From: a virus
IMG/VR virus record: IMGVR_UViG_3300030450_001763
Coordinates: 1-21,182 of that record
Direction: 5' to 3' (one strand)
DNA length: 21,182 nt
In this document: positions 6,110 to 19,439 of the stretch, piece after piece
Position numbering within the stretch: the stretch's first letter is position 1
Layout: the number at the start of each line of letters is the position of its first letter
Notes under the pieces: generated by a model
Databases searched by the model: none
What the model was told of the DNA's origin: nothing
The model's input: only the letters and a program-made list of their open reading frames with translations
Made by a program: the position numbers and the translations under genes

Positions 6110-6547
6110 TTATGTTATATTTGCAATATGAGAGCAATTAAACTCCCATTCTACTATATATGGATCTTCTGGTTCACCAGCATCTAATGTGCAAGTTTCC
6201 ATTCTACAATCAAATAATTGTGTATTGTCAGCTAAATCCATAGATATATTATCATGCATTAATGCTTCAGCTCTTGAAACAAATCTTAATATATGATCAT
6301 ATTCCTTTTTACCAATTTCTTTACTATCAAAATAAAAGAAAATATTTATTGTAAATTCTCTTTGCTCTCCACCAGCATATAACTCAGTTAGCTCAGAAGA
6401 AGCAGGTTCTAGCCTAAAATACTGATTTCCTGCACTCTCATCAGCTCTACCTATAAAAACAGGTGCAGTACCACCAAATTCAGCCCTTAAAGTAGATTGC
6501 ACTTTATCTAATATATTCTTCCAATTATTTGTAAAAGTTACAGCCAT
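6110..6547 (-). CDS. Tail terminator / tail completion protein
   Basis: This 145-residue protein starts MAVTFTNNWKNILDKVQSTL and then alternates beta strands and a helix. That is the fold pattern of tail terminator proteins (lambda gpU-like), in which an N-terminal helix precedes a beta sheet with residues such as EFTINIFFYFD. It sits between the head-tail joining genes and the major tail protein, the usual place for the protein that caps the finished tail and binds the head connector. The ATG overlaps the stop of the thermonuclease gene by one base (TAATG). It has only a weak AAAGA ribosome site, so coupling to the gene before it is likely. The call is by order and fold-like sequence, not a motif. 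Confidence 0.65.
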   Translation of the reverse strand: MAVTFTNNWKNILDKVQSTLRAEFGGTAPVFIGRADESAGNQYFRLEPASSELTELYAGGEQREFTINIFFYFDSKEIGKKEYDHILRFVSRAEALMHDNISMDLADNTQLFDCRMETCTLDAGEPEDPYIVEWEFNCSHIANIT

Positions 6548-6909
6548 TATTTATTCATCTTTCTAGCCAATTCTTTATTTCCACCATGATATTTATATGC
6601 ATGACCATGTTTTACTAATTCTTCGTTCATATTTACACCATCTAAGACAACTTCTCCTAAGCAGCGACCATACTTGCCAACTCCATGAGATATAAGGTTA
6701 AATGAGCCTTCTTCAAGGAAGTCAACAACAAACTGTTTTGCTGCTAGTCCTTTTTTCTTTTCTTCTAAATCTCTAGTTCTACTTTCCCAAGTATCTACAC
6801 CATATAATCTAACTCTGATTTTAATATGACAGTTAAATCCTAAATCAGCCAAACAATCAAGTGTATCACCATCTACTACTCTAAGTAATTTTGCTTTATA
6901 TTCAAACAT
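6547..6909 (-). CDS. Staphylococcal-nuclease-like thermonuclease
   Basis: A 120-residue SNase domain is recognisable over the whole length. The motif VVDGDT at 11-16 carries the metal-binding Asp15. RLYGVDTWES at 34-43 carries Arg34, Asp39, Thr40 and Glu42, matching Arg35, Asp40, Thr41 and Glu43 of the Staphylococcus enzyme. KYGR at 79-82 carries Arg82, matching Arg87. All catalytic residues are therefore present, so an active calcium-dependent phosphodiesterase is expected. There is no signal peptide, so it would act in the cytoplasm or inside the virion. It is co-transcribed with head-tail joining genes, with one-base overlaps on both sides. Its role is not known: host DNA degradation, a virion-borne nuclease, or resolution of DNA during packaging are all possible. 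Confidence 0.9.
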   Translation of the reverse strand: MFEYKAKLLRVVDGDTLDCLADLGFNCHIKIRVRLYGVDTWESRTRDLEEKKKGLAAKQFVVDFLEEGSFNLISHGVGKYGRCLGEVVLDGVNMNEELVKHGHAYKYHGGNKELARKMNK

Positions 6910-12628: not shown

Positions 12629-13573
12629 TTAAGAAACGTCAGTTAAGATATAAACACCAAATGCATCTTTTATCTCTACTTCACCCCAGAAACCACAAGC
12701 GATATACTCTGTAGTTCTAAATGAAGCATTTCTTTCAGTTTCTATTCTAAATAAACCATCAACACCAACAGCTAGTCCAATAGCACCTTTAGAAAATGCA
12801 AATCCAGCAGCATCACCACCAGAACCAACATCTTCATTGATTTGATCAGACCAATAAACATTAAAACCAGCAATACTACCAACAAAACCAGTAGCCATAG
12901 CTTCTTCACCTTTATTACCCATTAAAGACATAGGTTTAGCATTTGATCCTGTAACAGCATCATCATGCAATAAAGATATAAGACCCTTAGAACCCCATAC
13001 TTGTTTTGGAGATAATACTAAATTATAAGGCATAGGTGCACCAGCTGCTCTTAATTGTCGCATTGAACCAAAAACATGAGATAAAGCTAAAGCAGTACCT
13101 GCTGAAGATTCAGTTTGAGAAAAGCCTGTACCTAATGCAGTTAAGTCAGCATCAAGTTTAGCAGCAACTGCATTACCTAATACAGCACCAACATTACCAG
13201 TTAGATCTTCTGCATTACCCATAACAGCTAAATCAGAAACATCTGCTCTAACAATATGCTCACTAATAGTAGCAGTTCTAGCAGCAGTTGCTACTGATGT
13301 AACAGTAGTTTCATCAACACCATCACCTGGTGTTCCAACATCACTAGAAGCTAGTTTTGTATAATCTGCGAATTGAACATGAGTTGTTCCTGGATTAGCT
13401 TGTTTAGTAGTAACAAGTGGAAACATAACATTAGCATGGTTAAATGCTATAACAGCATCACCAATAGTTCTACCTAAACCACCAGCTGCAACACCAGTAT
13501 CAGTTTCTCCACAAGGCATATTAGCCATAGCACCATGCAAAGCATAGTTTTGTAATCTTTCTAAATTCGTCAT
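12629..13573 (-). CDS. Major capsid protein (HK97-type fold, inferred)
   Basis: A 314-residue protein following the scaffold, with text typical of HK97-fold coat proteins: an N-terminal helix with LERLQNYALHGAMANMP, a central region with AVLGNAVAAKLDADLTALG (P-domain helix), NLVLSPKQVWGSKGLISLL (loop preceding a strand), and a beta-rich C-terminal part with AFGVYILTD. Its size fits such coat proteins and it is downstream of a scaffold. The start ATG has a GAGG about nine bases upstream. It is composed of residues favouring Ala, Gly, Thr and has few Cys (3), as usual. I see no protease gene in the window, so maturation may be protease-free. Confidence 0.85.
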   Translation of the reverse strand: MTNLERLQNYALHGAMANMPCGETDTGVAAGGLGRTIGDAVIAFNHANVMFPLVTTKQANPGTTHVQFADYTKLASSDVGTPGDGVDETTVTSVATAARTATISEHIVRADVSDLAVMGNAEDLTGNVGAVLGNAVAAKLDADLTALGTGFSQTESSAGTALALSHVFGSMRQLRAAGAPMPYNLVLSPKQVWGSKGLISLLHDDAVTGSNAKPMSLMGNKGEEAMATGFVGSIAGFNVYWSDQINEDVGSGGDAAGFAFSKGAIGLAVGVDGLFRIETERNASFRTTEYIACGFWGEVEIKDAFGVYILTDVS

Positions 13574-13649: not shown

Positions 13650-13994
13650 TTATTTCATTATGTTCCCATTTTCATCAAAATTAACACCATTGAACATTCC
13701 AATAGAAGAAGTGGTTATGGATTTGCCTTTTTGATGTCTATCAGCTCTTTCTTCTAATTCATCAACATAAGAATTATAATCCATTTTTTGCCCTTTATAC
13801 TTGACATCACAATCTCCATCATCTTTAACATCTACAACCATATCACCTTTCGGATCAAAGTCAACTCCCATAATCTTACTATGGTCTTTCTTAATAGCCA
13901 ATTCTAATCTTTCCAGATGTTTGTGGTGTATTTGCCTTTTTGTATCCTGCTGGATCTTTAGTTGCCCATTCTTGATAAGAACTGTAACCACCAA
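13650..13994 (-). CDS. Small protein overlapping the scaffold end, function unknown
   Basis: The frame is open over 114 codons and overlaps the scaffold end by 104 bases in the +1 frame. An ATG at 13994 has no good ribosome site, so a later start is likely: TTG at 13901 preceded by GGAAAGA, or ATG at 13871. The text after that is clean: GVDFDPKGDM around residues 43-52 and GVNFDENGNIM near the C-terminus form two copies of a G-V-D/N-F-D-x-x-G-D/N pattern. A Glu/Lys-rich helix with ELEERADRHQKGK lies between. The position, between scaffold and capsid, suggests a role in head assembly. A frameshift extension of the scaffold is another reading. I am unsure of the start. Confidence 0.55.
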   Translation of the reverse strand: MVVTVLIKNGQLKIQQDTKRQIHHKHLERLELAIKKDHSKIMGVDFDPKGDMVVDVKDDGDCDVKYKGQKMDYNSYVDELEERADRHQKGKSITTSSIGMFNGVNFDENGNIMK

Positions 13995-14478
13995 ACTCTC
14001 CTAATTTAGCATCTCTGCCTTCAGGAACATTTGGTACATTTGATTTAGAAACATTTAACCTCTTTGATAATTTTTCTATATCGTTTAAAGGCAAATGACT
14101 AAATTGCTCTCTATCATCTTCAGAAAAAGATTCTAATAATTCAGACTTACGAGTATTTAAGTAATTATCATATTCTCCAGCTTTTTTAGTTAAAGATTCA
14201 ATTTGTGAATCTTTTTCAGCAATAATTGTTTTGAACTCACCAGCTTCTTCCATTTTTTTCTGCCTAGCTGCTGCTTCATTCTTTTCAAATTGCTCTAATT
14301 TACTTTGAAGCTCTTGATTCTTACCTCGTAACTTTTTATTATAATCTACTTCATTCTCATGTAGAGATTTCCAATTAGTATCATTTGTATTACTTTGATC
14401 GGTCTGATCATTAGTTTGAGCTGTCTGCTCTCCAGAAATCCCTGCCTGTTCAGTCTGGTTTTGTACTTCTTCAGCCAT
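13891..14478 (-). CDS. Capsid scaffold protein
   Basis: A 195-residue, highly charged, Gln/Glu/Asn-rich protein. After a disordered, Gln/Asn/Thr-rich start of about 35 residues, a long coiled coil follows from about 40 to 112 (e.g. LRGKNQELQSKLEQFEKN). The C-terminal portion with FGGYSSYQEWATKDP and a short basic end is where scaffold proteins contact the coat. Length, composition and position immediately upstream of the coat protein gene agree with scaffold proteins, which direct coat assembly and then leave. The start has AAGGAG nine bases upstream. It is the first gene of the leftward late operon and is probably driven from the divergent promoter region. Confidence 0.85.
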   Translation of the reverse strand: MAEEVQNQTEQAGISGEQTAQTNDQTDQSNTNDTNWKSLHENEVDYNKKLRGKNQELQSKLEQFEKNEAAARQKKMEEAGEFKTIIAEKDSQIESLTKKAGEYDNYLNTRKSELLESFSEDDREQFSHLPLNDIEKLSKRLNVSKSNVPNVPEGRDAKLGEFGGYSSYQEWATKDPAGYKKANTPQTSGKIRIGY

Positions 14479-14494
14479 TGTAATAAACTCCTTT

Positions 14495-14522
14495 TTGACT
14501 TTTTTAGTAACATAAATATACT
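14495..14522 (+). promoter_or_regulatory. Sigma70-like promoter reading rightward toward the large terminase
   Basis: A TTGACT at 14495-14500 lies 16 bases before TATACT at 14517-14522; both are one or two bases from consensus. The start point would be about 14529, giving a leader of about 60 bases before the terminase ATG. The -10 lies inside the palindrome at 14515-14536. Confidence 0.5.
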
Positions 14523-14536
14523 ATTTATAGTATATT
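14515..14536. promoter_or_regulatory. Perfect palindrome in divergent promoter region (operator candidate)
   Basis: Arms AATATACTAT (14515-14524) and ATAGTATATT (14527-14536) are perfect inverted copies with a TT centre. Because of symmetry each arm carries a TATACT that could act as a -10 box in both directions: rightward with TTGACT at 14495-14500, leftward with TTTATA read from 14556-14551 and a 16-base spacer. A dimeric regulator here would control the scaffold/capsid operon and the terminase operon together. No regulator gene is seen in the window. Confidence 0.65.
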
Positions 14537-14556
14537 AGATATATGAAATATATAAA
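14529..14556 (-). promoter_or_regulatory. Possible leftward promoter for the scaffold-capsid-tail operon
   Basis: On the minus strand TTTATA (14556-14551) and TATACT (14534-14529) are 16 bases apart. The -35 matches consensus at only four of six bases. It is supported mainly by the divergent gene layout and by symmetry with the rightward promoter. The leader would be about 45 bases and include the AAGGAG of the scaffold gene. Confidence 0.35.
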
Positions 14557-14590
14557 CTATTCTACTAAAATACAAAAATTTTTATAATAA

Positions 14591-15970
14591 ATGATGGAAT
14601 ATACACAAAATATTGAAGAATATAAGAATAAATGGTTTAATTTCGTAAAGTACGAGCCACATAGTGGACAAAAAAAATTACATTTCCCTCCTAATGGTGT
14701 ATATAATGCAGAAAACAATCCTGATGGCACAAGATATACTGTAGTATCGGCAGGAAGAAGGTTCGGTAAAAGTTTTAGTGCAGCTAGAGAAATAGAGATC
14801 CAATTATGTATTCCTAACTCTGTATGTTGGATAATAGCACCTAATTATGCCACATCAAGTAAGATATTTGAGTTTGTATATACAGAGCTTGTTATTCAAA
14901 AAGGATATAAACCTGCTAGATATTCAGCTAAAGATCAATATTTAGAGTTTGATTGGAATGGTGGGAAGTCTGTATTAGAGGGTAAGTCAGCAGAGTTTCC
15001 TAATTCTATGATTGGTGAAGGTGTATCTTTAGCAGTATTTGATGAAGCAAGTAAGATTAAAGGATTAAAGAAAATCTGGGAGATGTATGTAAGACCTACT
15101 TTATCTGATGGTAAGAGGGGTAAAGGTAGAGCAATATTTATTTCCACACCACAAGGACACAATTATTTTTACAGATTGTTTTTAAAAGGACAAAATGAAG
15201 CTAATTGGTATTCGTTTAACTCTCCATCATGGGATAATAGACATTCATTTCCAGAAGGAGAAGAAGATTTAGATTTATTAGAAGCTAAACAATCTCTGAC
15301 TGACGAGATATTCAGACAAGAGTTCGCAGCAGAGTTTACATCATTACAAGGTAGAGTATATAATGACTTCTCTAGGAATGAGAATGTAGGTAAATATAGA
15401 TATAGATACAATCTGCCTACTTTTATGTCTATTGACTTTGGATATAGAAGTCCTGCTGTATTATGGTTTCAAACAGAACGAATTAATGATGTGGATCACA
15501 TTTATTTTATAGATGAGATAGTACATCAGACTAATATTAAAACAACAGAATTAGTGGACATGATAAAGCAAAGACCATATCAGATAGCAAATGTATATGG
15601 AGATCCTGCTGGTTATCAAGTCCAGGCTTCAGTAGGTAAAGGTGAAGCAGATATATTTTATCAAAATACTGGGTGGAGAGTATTTGCAGTAAGAGATAAA
15701 GCATCTAGGAGTATAGCTTCAGGTGTATCTCATGTAAGAAATTTCATACTATCTTCAGATGGAACAAGAAGATTGCATATAGATGAAAAATGTACTGGAT
15801 TAATAGAAGATATGGAAGGATATGCATACCCTGAAAGCAAAGAGGGTTATGATTTAAAAGAGCTTCCAAAGAAAGATGGATACCATGATCACAGCATGGA
15901 TGCTCTACGGTATGCATTAGTTAATCAATTTCCAATCAGACAATATCAAATACAATTCAGGAGCAGATGA
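14591..15970 (+). CDS. terL: Large terminase subunit
   Basis: A 459-residue packaging motor: ATPase plus headful/cohesive-end nuclease. The Walker A motif (AGRRFGKS, residues 54-61) and Walker B (LAVFDEAS, 147-154, with Asp151-Glu152) are clear. A coupling motif STPQG lies at 185-189. The RNase H-like nuclease has Asp282 (SIDFGYRSP), Asp338 (GDPAG) and the HDHSMDALRYA motif at 432-442, supplying further acidic residues. The gene has two ATGs in tandem (14591 and 14594), but no Shine-Dalgarno-like sequence within 20 bases upstream; a TATAAT lies three bases before the first ATG, so translation could be leaderless or AT-leader dependent. Its stop overlaps the portal start. Unlike the usual case the small subunit is not next to it. 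Confidence 0.97.
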   Translation: MMEYTQNIEEYKNKWFNFVKYEPHSGQKKLHFPPNGVYNAENNPDGTRYTVVSAGRRFGKSFSAAREIEIQLCIPNSVCWIIAPNYATSSKIFEFVYTELVIQKGYKPARYSAKDQYLEFDWNGGKSVLEGKSAEFPNSMIGEGVSLAVFDEASKIKGLKKIWEMYVRPTLSDGKRGKGRAIFISTPQGHNYFYRLFLKGQNEANWYSFNSPSWDNRHSFPEGEEDLDLLEAKQSLTDEIFRQEFAAEFTSLQGRVYNDFSRNENVGKYRYRYNLPTFMSIDFGYRSPAVLWFQTERINDVDHIYFIDEIVHQTNIKTTELVDMIKQRPYQIANVYGDPAGYQVQASVGKGEADIFYQNTGWRVFAVRDKASRSIASGVSHVRNFILSSDGTRRLHIDEKCTGLIEDMEGYAYPESKEGYDLKELPKKDGYHDHSMDALRYALVNQFPIRQYQIQFRSR

Positions 15971-18583: not shown

Positions 18584-18778
18584 TGGACAATAATAAACGT
18601 TATCTCCTTGTAAATCAATTAAGTCAACAATTAAATCTTCAACATCAAATATAACATTTTTAGTATCATAACCCATACATTCATATAAGAACTCATAATC
18701 CTCAATGTACATAATCATAACTTGTATGATAAACCTATTTTCCTTCGATATTTCCTGTTTCTCGTCTGTGTAGTTCAT
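18569..18778 (-). CDS. Small acidic protein, convergent with head genes, function unknown
   Basis: A 69-codon frame, overlapping the small terminase end by 44 bases at its start and the MuF-like gene end by 15 bases (tail to tail). A shorter start at 18718 (MIMYIEDYEFLYEC) would avoid much of the overlap. It is rich in Tyr, Asp and Glu and ends in DVEDLIVDLIDLQGDNVYY, like small phage acidic proteins. No family recognised, and the ribosome site is poor, so it may be coupled to the terminase gene. I am not certain it is translated. Confidence 0.45.
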   Translation of the reverse strand: MNYTDEKQEISKENRFIIQVMIMYIEDYEFLYECMGYDTKNVIFDVEDLIVDLIDLQGDNVYYCPLTIA

Positions 18779-19439
18779 CTAACCATTTTTTCCTTGCTTG
18801 TGGTGTAGGCTTTCCAGGAGGTAAAGGCTTTAATCCAACTTTGTTAGCTCTGTAACGTAACTTTTTCCTCTCATTAGCAGCTTTCCTCTTTTTATCATCT
18901 GCATAAGTCCTTTTAGATCTTAACTCTGCATCCCTTAATGCTTTATTCTGCCTTCTAGCTACTGTATTAGGAGTATCATTAAGTGGATCTCGTTCAGGTA
19001 AAGGAGGTAACATATCCTGATCTTTAACCTCAAAACTATTACCAATATCAATAGCTACATCTTCTACTATCTCTGCATCTTCAGTATCAGCCACCTTTAA
19101 ATGTTGCATAAAAGGAGATTCTACCTTTAACACTAAAGTGTCTTGTAACTTACCAAAGTGCTTTAATATCAATTCAGCAGCTCTAGTATTACCTCTTTTA
19201 GCTTCTTCTATCTGTGCCATTAATACCTGTGGTAAATGCACTCCTGCAATCTCCATGAACCTATCATATACCATATCAATAACATCAGGATCAGTCCTAT
19301 AATTGCTAATAGTTTCAACACTTACATTTAGTTTTTTAGAAAGCTCAGCAGCCTTTATTCCAGGATTCAATGCCATCATCTCTGCCACTATCTTCTTCCT
19401 AGCTAATGTTACATTAGGCTTGGTAACGTTATTTTTCAT
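18735..19439 (-). CDS. terS: Small terminase subunit (HTH-containing)
   Basis: A 234-residue protein. Residues about 25-55 form a helix-turn-helix of the type used to bind the packaging site (GIKAAELSKKLNVSVETISN). The segment RGNTRAAELILKHFGKLQDT (residues 89-108) is the helical core common to terminase small subunits of the phBC6A51 type, and is preceded by a helix (LPQVLMAQIEEAK). The C-terminal third is very basic (many Arg/Lys from about 160), likely DNA binding. It recognises the packaging site and loads the large subunit. The ATG at 19439 has no Shine-Dalgarno; an alternative GTG at 19388 has AGGAAG six bases upstream. It is separated from, and convergent with, the terL block. Confidence 0.78.
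   Translation of the reverse strand: MKNNVTKPNVTLARKKIVAEMMALNPGIKAAELSKKLNVSVETISNYRTDPDVIDMVYDRFMEIAGVHLPQVLMAQIEEAKRGNTRAAELILKHFGKLQDTLVLKVESPFMQHLKVADTEDAEIVEDVAIDIGNSFEVKDQDMLPPLPERDPLNDTPNTVARRQNKALRDAELRSKRTYADDKKRKAANERKKLRYRANKVGLKPLPPGKPTPQARKKWLDELHRRETGNIEGK

Follow-up and report, generated by a model that had tools for sequence, protein, structure and literature searches.

What does a conspicuous inverted repeat do when it lies in the short gap between two phage operons that run away from each other, one carrying head genes and the other the terminase large subunit gene (terL)? The question is raised by the IMG/VR record IMGVR_UViG_3300030450_001763, a linear, A+T-rich virus DNA of 21182 bases, the whole of which was analysed and is referred to here as the window. 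Leftward from 14478 run the capsid and tail genes, while rightward from 14591 run terL, a portal-like gene and others, the divergent scaffold-like/capsid (-) and terL/portal-like (+) operons being separated by a gap of 112 bp (Table 1). The portal-like gene is assigned by its position, a family match being absent, and a portal search among phages gave no match; searches for a close cultured phage and, with the host in mind, for a relative of TerL in genome contigs also found none. The tail-gene region additionally holds a staphylococcal-nuclease-like gene (6547-6909, -).

Table 1. Positions of the genes, repeat elements and candidate promoter elements in the window
Feature	Position	Strand	Remark
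Major capsid protein gene	12629..13573	-	phrog_544
Scaffold-like gene	13891..14478	-	named for lying upstream of the capsid gene, without a family match
GGAG, Shine-Dalgarno-like site of the scaffold-like gene	14488..14491	-	direct reading
Earlier-proposed promoter TTGACT-N16-TATACT	14495..14522	+	conserved in the close clade
Inverted repeat, 10-bp arms and TT centre	14515..14536	n/a	
Homologous family core ACTA-TTTA-TAGT	14520-14531		inside the inverted repeat
Dyad left half, AATAGT on -, homologous to TATWGT of relatives	14520..14525	-	putative; possible scaffold -10 or operator half-site
TAGTAT, terL -35 position by homology with TTGYAT	14528..14533	+	putative
Earlier-proposed promoter TTTATA-N16-TATACT	14529..14556	-	spacing 15 in L002 and L023, direct reading
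TATAAACT, terL -10 region	14551..14558	+	putative; TATAAA 17 bp or TAAACT 19 bp after TAGTAT
Terminase large subunit gene (terL)	14591..15970	+	phrog_2; Terminase_6N, 6C
Helix-turn-helix protein, probably small terminase subunit	18735-19439	-	HTH_11, below its cut-off

The repeat and its expected frequency

The repeat, AATATACTAT-TT-ATAGTATATT, had been described in a first-pass annotation as a perfect 22-bp palindrome, a label that fails because the two central bases, TT, lack symmetry, leaving two 10-bp arms about an asymmetric centre and 20 of 22 positions symmetric. It is the only perfect repeat in the window with arms of at least 10 and a loop of at most 4, thresholds that were chosen after the repeat had been seen, against a mean of 0.17 over 30 shuffles. 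Shuffling the 112-bp gap in which it lies 2000 times yields a comparable perfect repeat in 31 cases, and a looser palindrome score, with mismatches permitted, gives p = 0.07 within the gap; on these counts the repeat taken alone is only mildly unusual for a gap so rich in A+T. An RNA hairpin or intrinsic terminator was rejected, with 0 terminators, no Rfam match and a fold no better than shuffles (z -0.5). A second, imperfect inverted repeat (TTTTAGTAACATA / TATTCTACTAAAA, at 14502-14514 and 14558-14570) flanks the dyad but has a different centre.

The element in related phages

Searches of IMG/VR with TerL gave 18 loci (numbered here with the prefix L) and then the best 80 of 372, with identities from 99% down to about 47%. 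Among these best 80 of 372 TerL loci, most place terL back to back with a leftward gene, called scaffold-like from its location, across a gap of ~50-140 bp; no leftward gene lies close to terL in, for example, L049, L051, L052, L054, L056, L057 and L062, and some loci are uninformative on gene order, their contigs beginning too near terL. Loss of the palindrome in relatives had been proposed as grounds for dismissing it, and here the outcome is graded: the repeat is kept in the close clade and in relatives of 92-99% identity, L002 and the L008/L009/L010 group of the close clade carrying a central A to G change that gives perfect arms of nine, it is changed though still dyadic in L025 and L026, and it is unrecognisable in L011, L027, L028, L030 and others.

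In the distant relatives, 23 non-redundant loci supplied 24 hits, L012 contributing two, and these could be aligned without gaps across the dyad, the spacer and TAASTTADATTA. Their consensus is AC[AT]A-TATC-TTG[CT]AT, then 17 bp, then TTADATTA, and C1 and G10 are the most conserved positions in the 24 aligned hits; by direct reading, the window core ACTATTTATAGTAT shares 11 of its 14 positions with ACTATATCTTGTAT. A profile that leaves out the window clade was built from 16 sequences of distant relatives, whose TerL is about 47-50% identical; run over the whole window on both strands, it has its top score of 8.3 bits at 14514, on the repeat, with a runner-up of 5.3, and still gives 8.0 bits at the window repeat when rebuilt without L012. 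Since this profile scores best exactly at the repeat, the repeat appears to be more than chance. The profile's best score in L025 (17.7) is also at the element; at L023, a 92% relative, the profile fails (0.2 bits, p 0.07), in L020 and L023 a minus-strand match at the start of terL outscores the element, and no convincing match was obtained in L011, L027, L030, L031, L034, L042, L044, L053 or the non-divergent loci.

On a TerL tree of 48 rows, the recognised core is present in 32, needing five changes, and absent from 16, including L011, L027, L028 and L030, which are the next relatives of the window; it is therefore either ancient, with several later losses, or the product of more than one gain. 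Allowing one mismatch, the window gap also matches ACTATATATAGT, a sequence of the L045-L060 group, as do 78 of 5000 shuffles by chance. With respect to copy number, a scan of 882 kb gave 39 hits at terL against 1 elsewhere, and 13 of 18 whole records hold exactly one exact core; a late promoter repeated across the phage was rejected on the ground that there is one site per phage. A 19-mer identical in L213 and L215 lies in a different gene context and was taken as chance, and in L012, L013 and L014 the core is present twice, the copies 31 bp apart. In many relatives, not all, the element occupies the gap that separates the scaffold-like gene from the divergently oriented terL; it thus lies between two divergent operons and is conserved alongside that arrangement, as would be looked for in a divergent promoter region.

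Spacing and symmetry of the element

A scan of the collection for TATCTTGYAT-N16 to 18-TTADATTA gave at least 120 stretches, from which 116 matches were parsed. Among the matches listed, every one of the 58 located immediately upstream of terL shows a distance of 17 bp to TTADATTA, a constrained -35/-10 spacing found on the + strand only; among the remaining 58, the distance is 17 bp in 37, 18 bp in 14 and 16 bp in 7, and 8 of these 58 fall, by our own filter, in loci with terL elsewhere, most of the 8 resembling the same element. The best-conserved form is ACWA-TATC-TTGYAT-N18-TADATT, which as a promoter would read TTGYAT-N18-TADATT. The fixed distance to TADATT leads us to infer a promoter for terL, with the right arm of the repeat as its -35 and a -10 about 17-19 bp downstream. 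The window clade has a variable spacer with a 1-bp indel between two conserved blocks, like a -35/-10 layout, the distances from TAGTAT to the -10 candidates being one bp shorter in L002 and L023 (16 to TATAAA, against 17 in the window, where TATAAA is at 14551-14556). Against the sigma-70 consensus, TAGTAT matches at 2/6 positions and TATAAA at 5/6.

The symmetry itself is less strict than the repeat in the window suggests. In 29 distinct 24-mers from 55 loci, arms pair with their own partner in 0.74 of cells and with a swapped one in 0.62, a difference that is inflated by relatedness and drawn from selection patterns that favour palindromes. When selection is made on the right half alone, the left half reads ACWA in 19 of 20 distinct terL sites versus 5 of 41 other sites, which argues for constraint on both halves. 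In this right-half-selected set, the outer pairs -6/17 (p 0.005) and -3/14 (p 0.01) exceed swapping, and the core pairs are invariant or without covariation beyond chance. The C:G pair is replaced by A:T on both sides in L025; in many relatives ACTA stands opposite TTGT, a mismatch at pair 2/9, and TTGC brings one at pair 0/11. Each half thus seems to be constrained, a claim that stops short of strict symmetry.

As to what the left half might contribute, its TATWGT matches 4-5/6 of the -10 consensus in most relatives, the window reading AATAGT, and the -35 that would accompany it is poor. The distant clade offers a further copy, a third half-site, YATNTWGT, some 31 bp (about three helical turns) left of the core in L071, L080, L091 and others, oriented like the right arm. 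Of 43 distinct distant-clade sequences, 42 have it at -28 to -26, 28 of them exactly at -27, and it is found nowhere else in -60..-2; it was not seen at the corresponding place in the window.

A candidate divergent promoter and operator

Taken together, the position at the start of both operons, the retention in close relatives and the homologous element in distant ones make a divergent promoter/operator shared by the two operons likely. In its full form, to which we give somewhat better than an even chance, the proposal is that the repeat forms the core of a single, conserved divergent promoter/operator, its right arm serving as the terL -35 and its left half also being constrained; position, single copy, conservation and, in the distant clade, fixed spacing come directly from the data. 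A single divergent region would start the leftward scaffold/capsid and the rightward terL/portal operons. For terL, the polymerase would use the right arm as -35, which reads TTGYAT in relatives and TAGTAT in the window, together with a -10 some 17-19 bp to its right, TADATT in relatives and TATAAA/TAAACT in the window; the left half (ACWA) would be either part of the leftward promoter, as a -10 of the form TATWGT, or a half-site for a dimeric regulator. A leftward promoter could use a mirrored -35, in which case the transcript would start at or inside the Shine-Dalgarno site, or the left-half -10 TATWGT, in which case that site would stay in the transcript, at the price of a poor -35; of the two, the left-half -10 is preferred. 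As the two promoters would share bases, polymerase or regulator bound one way is expected to exclude binding the other way, so that shell building would be balanced against packaging; the -35 and -10 identities, the transcription starts, this exclusion and any regulator are read into the sequence. A more speculative extension, and one that we doubt, is that the mirrored half-sites and the third copy 31 bp away in one clade form a family-specific switch, in which one phage or host protein would set the ratio of head building to packaging through the direction of the polymerase.

The first-pass annotation had likewise proposed shared divergent control, and that part of its account is supported by the position between two operons and the conservation; its choice of -10 boxes is not. 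A TATACT is indeed present on each strand (+ at 14517-14522, - at 14534-14529), each 5/6 to sigma-70, and the hexamers TTGACT (14495-14500) and TTTATA (14556-14551) precede the + and - copies, respectively, by 16 bp. A symmetric bidirectional promoter with these boxes, starting at ~14529 (+) and ~14522 (-), 7 bp apart, stays the main rival because its + hexamers fit the consensus better in the window (10/12 for TTGACT-N16-TATACT, retained in the window, L001, L002 and L023, versus 7/12 for the TAGTAT/TATAAA pair). It also has a precedent in bacterial promoters that are bidirectional owing to a symmetric -10 (Warman et al. 2021, as summarised in PMC10268837), whose start pairs lie 7-25 bp and usually 18 bp apart. 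We nevertheless judge it unlikely. The pair of TATACT hexamers belongs to the window clade and is mostly not kept in distant relatives, which makes its boxes doubtful as -10 elements; L002 and L023 have the wrong minus-strand spacing, 15; the model leaves unexplained the conserved block that lies downstream of the dyad; and the surrounding 2 kb contains 16 sigma-70-like pairs, where shuffles give 10.2 (sd 3.9), a near-chance density that makes these promoter matches weak evidence. Persuasive -10 boxes in an eye-catching palindrome can therefore mislead, and comparison with distant relatives can shift the likely promoter.

It is rather improbable, though somewhat less so, that the dyad is mainly an operator for a dimeric regulator, with the promoters elsewhere in the gap. 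The symmetric and most conserved C1 and G10, the left half conserved under right-half-only selection and the third half-site of one clade all speak for such a role, but the fixed distance to TADATT suits a promoter, HTH_3 is above its cut-off in only 4 of 15 records, and no regulator has been identified. The window had been said to hold no regulator gene, which is not quite right given the helix-turn-helix protein of Table 1, a possible candidate, although none was found beyond this TerS-like protein. A chance palindrome without function, in DNA that is 85% A+T, would accommodate the looser score within the gap and is very unlikely in view of the distant-relative profile, which peaks at the same place, and the fixed spacing among the matches listed. 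Least probable of all is a packaging (cos/pac) or replication site, for which a single-copy dyad adjoining terL would be suitable; the rigid spacing is promoter-like, GC skew tracks the gene strand, and contig ends lack a clear pile-up, 3 of the best 80 of 372 TerL loci (L004, L032, L037) having a contig start no more than 100 bp upstream of the terL match, a count read off with no formal test. A search for the phage RNA polymerase family PF00940 gave no match in 14 records and is uninformative, as the control genomes also gave nothing.

Classical overlapping divergent promoters with a dyad operator have back-to-back operons, a short shared gap and a central dyad. The present element is alike in all three, but lacks a known regulator gene, and both of its operons are structural or packaging ones. 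Compared with the -10-symmetry promoters, as PMC10268837 summarises them, divergent transcription would be expected here too from a nearly symmetric A+T-rich site, whereas the symmetry here seems to fall on the terL -35 instead of the -10, and the starts of the TATACT model would be 7 bp rather than the usual 18 bp apart. The element would be a promoter region of the general divergent/bidirectional kind, and no more than a candidate member of the -10-symmetry class. No description of it was found in the literature, surveyed at overview level. Its interest for this uncultivated phage family is as a conserved, single-copy site that may control the head and packaging genes and, if the two promoters are mutually exclusive, as a simple means of balancing the production of shell and motor. 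In the cultured Pelagibacter phage HTVC112P and in phage DSL-LC06, whose major capsid proteins are weakly similar to that of this phage, the terL, portal, scaffold and capsid genes all run in one direction, so that these phages have no such divergent gap.
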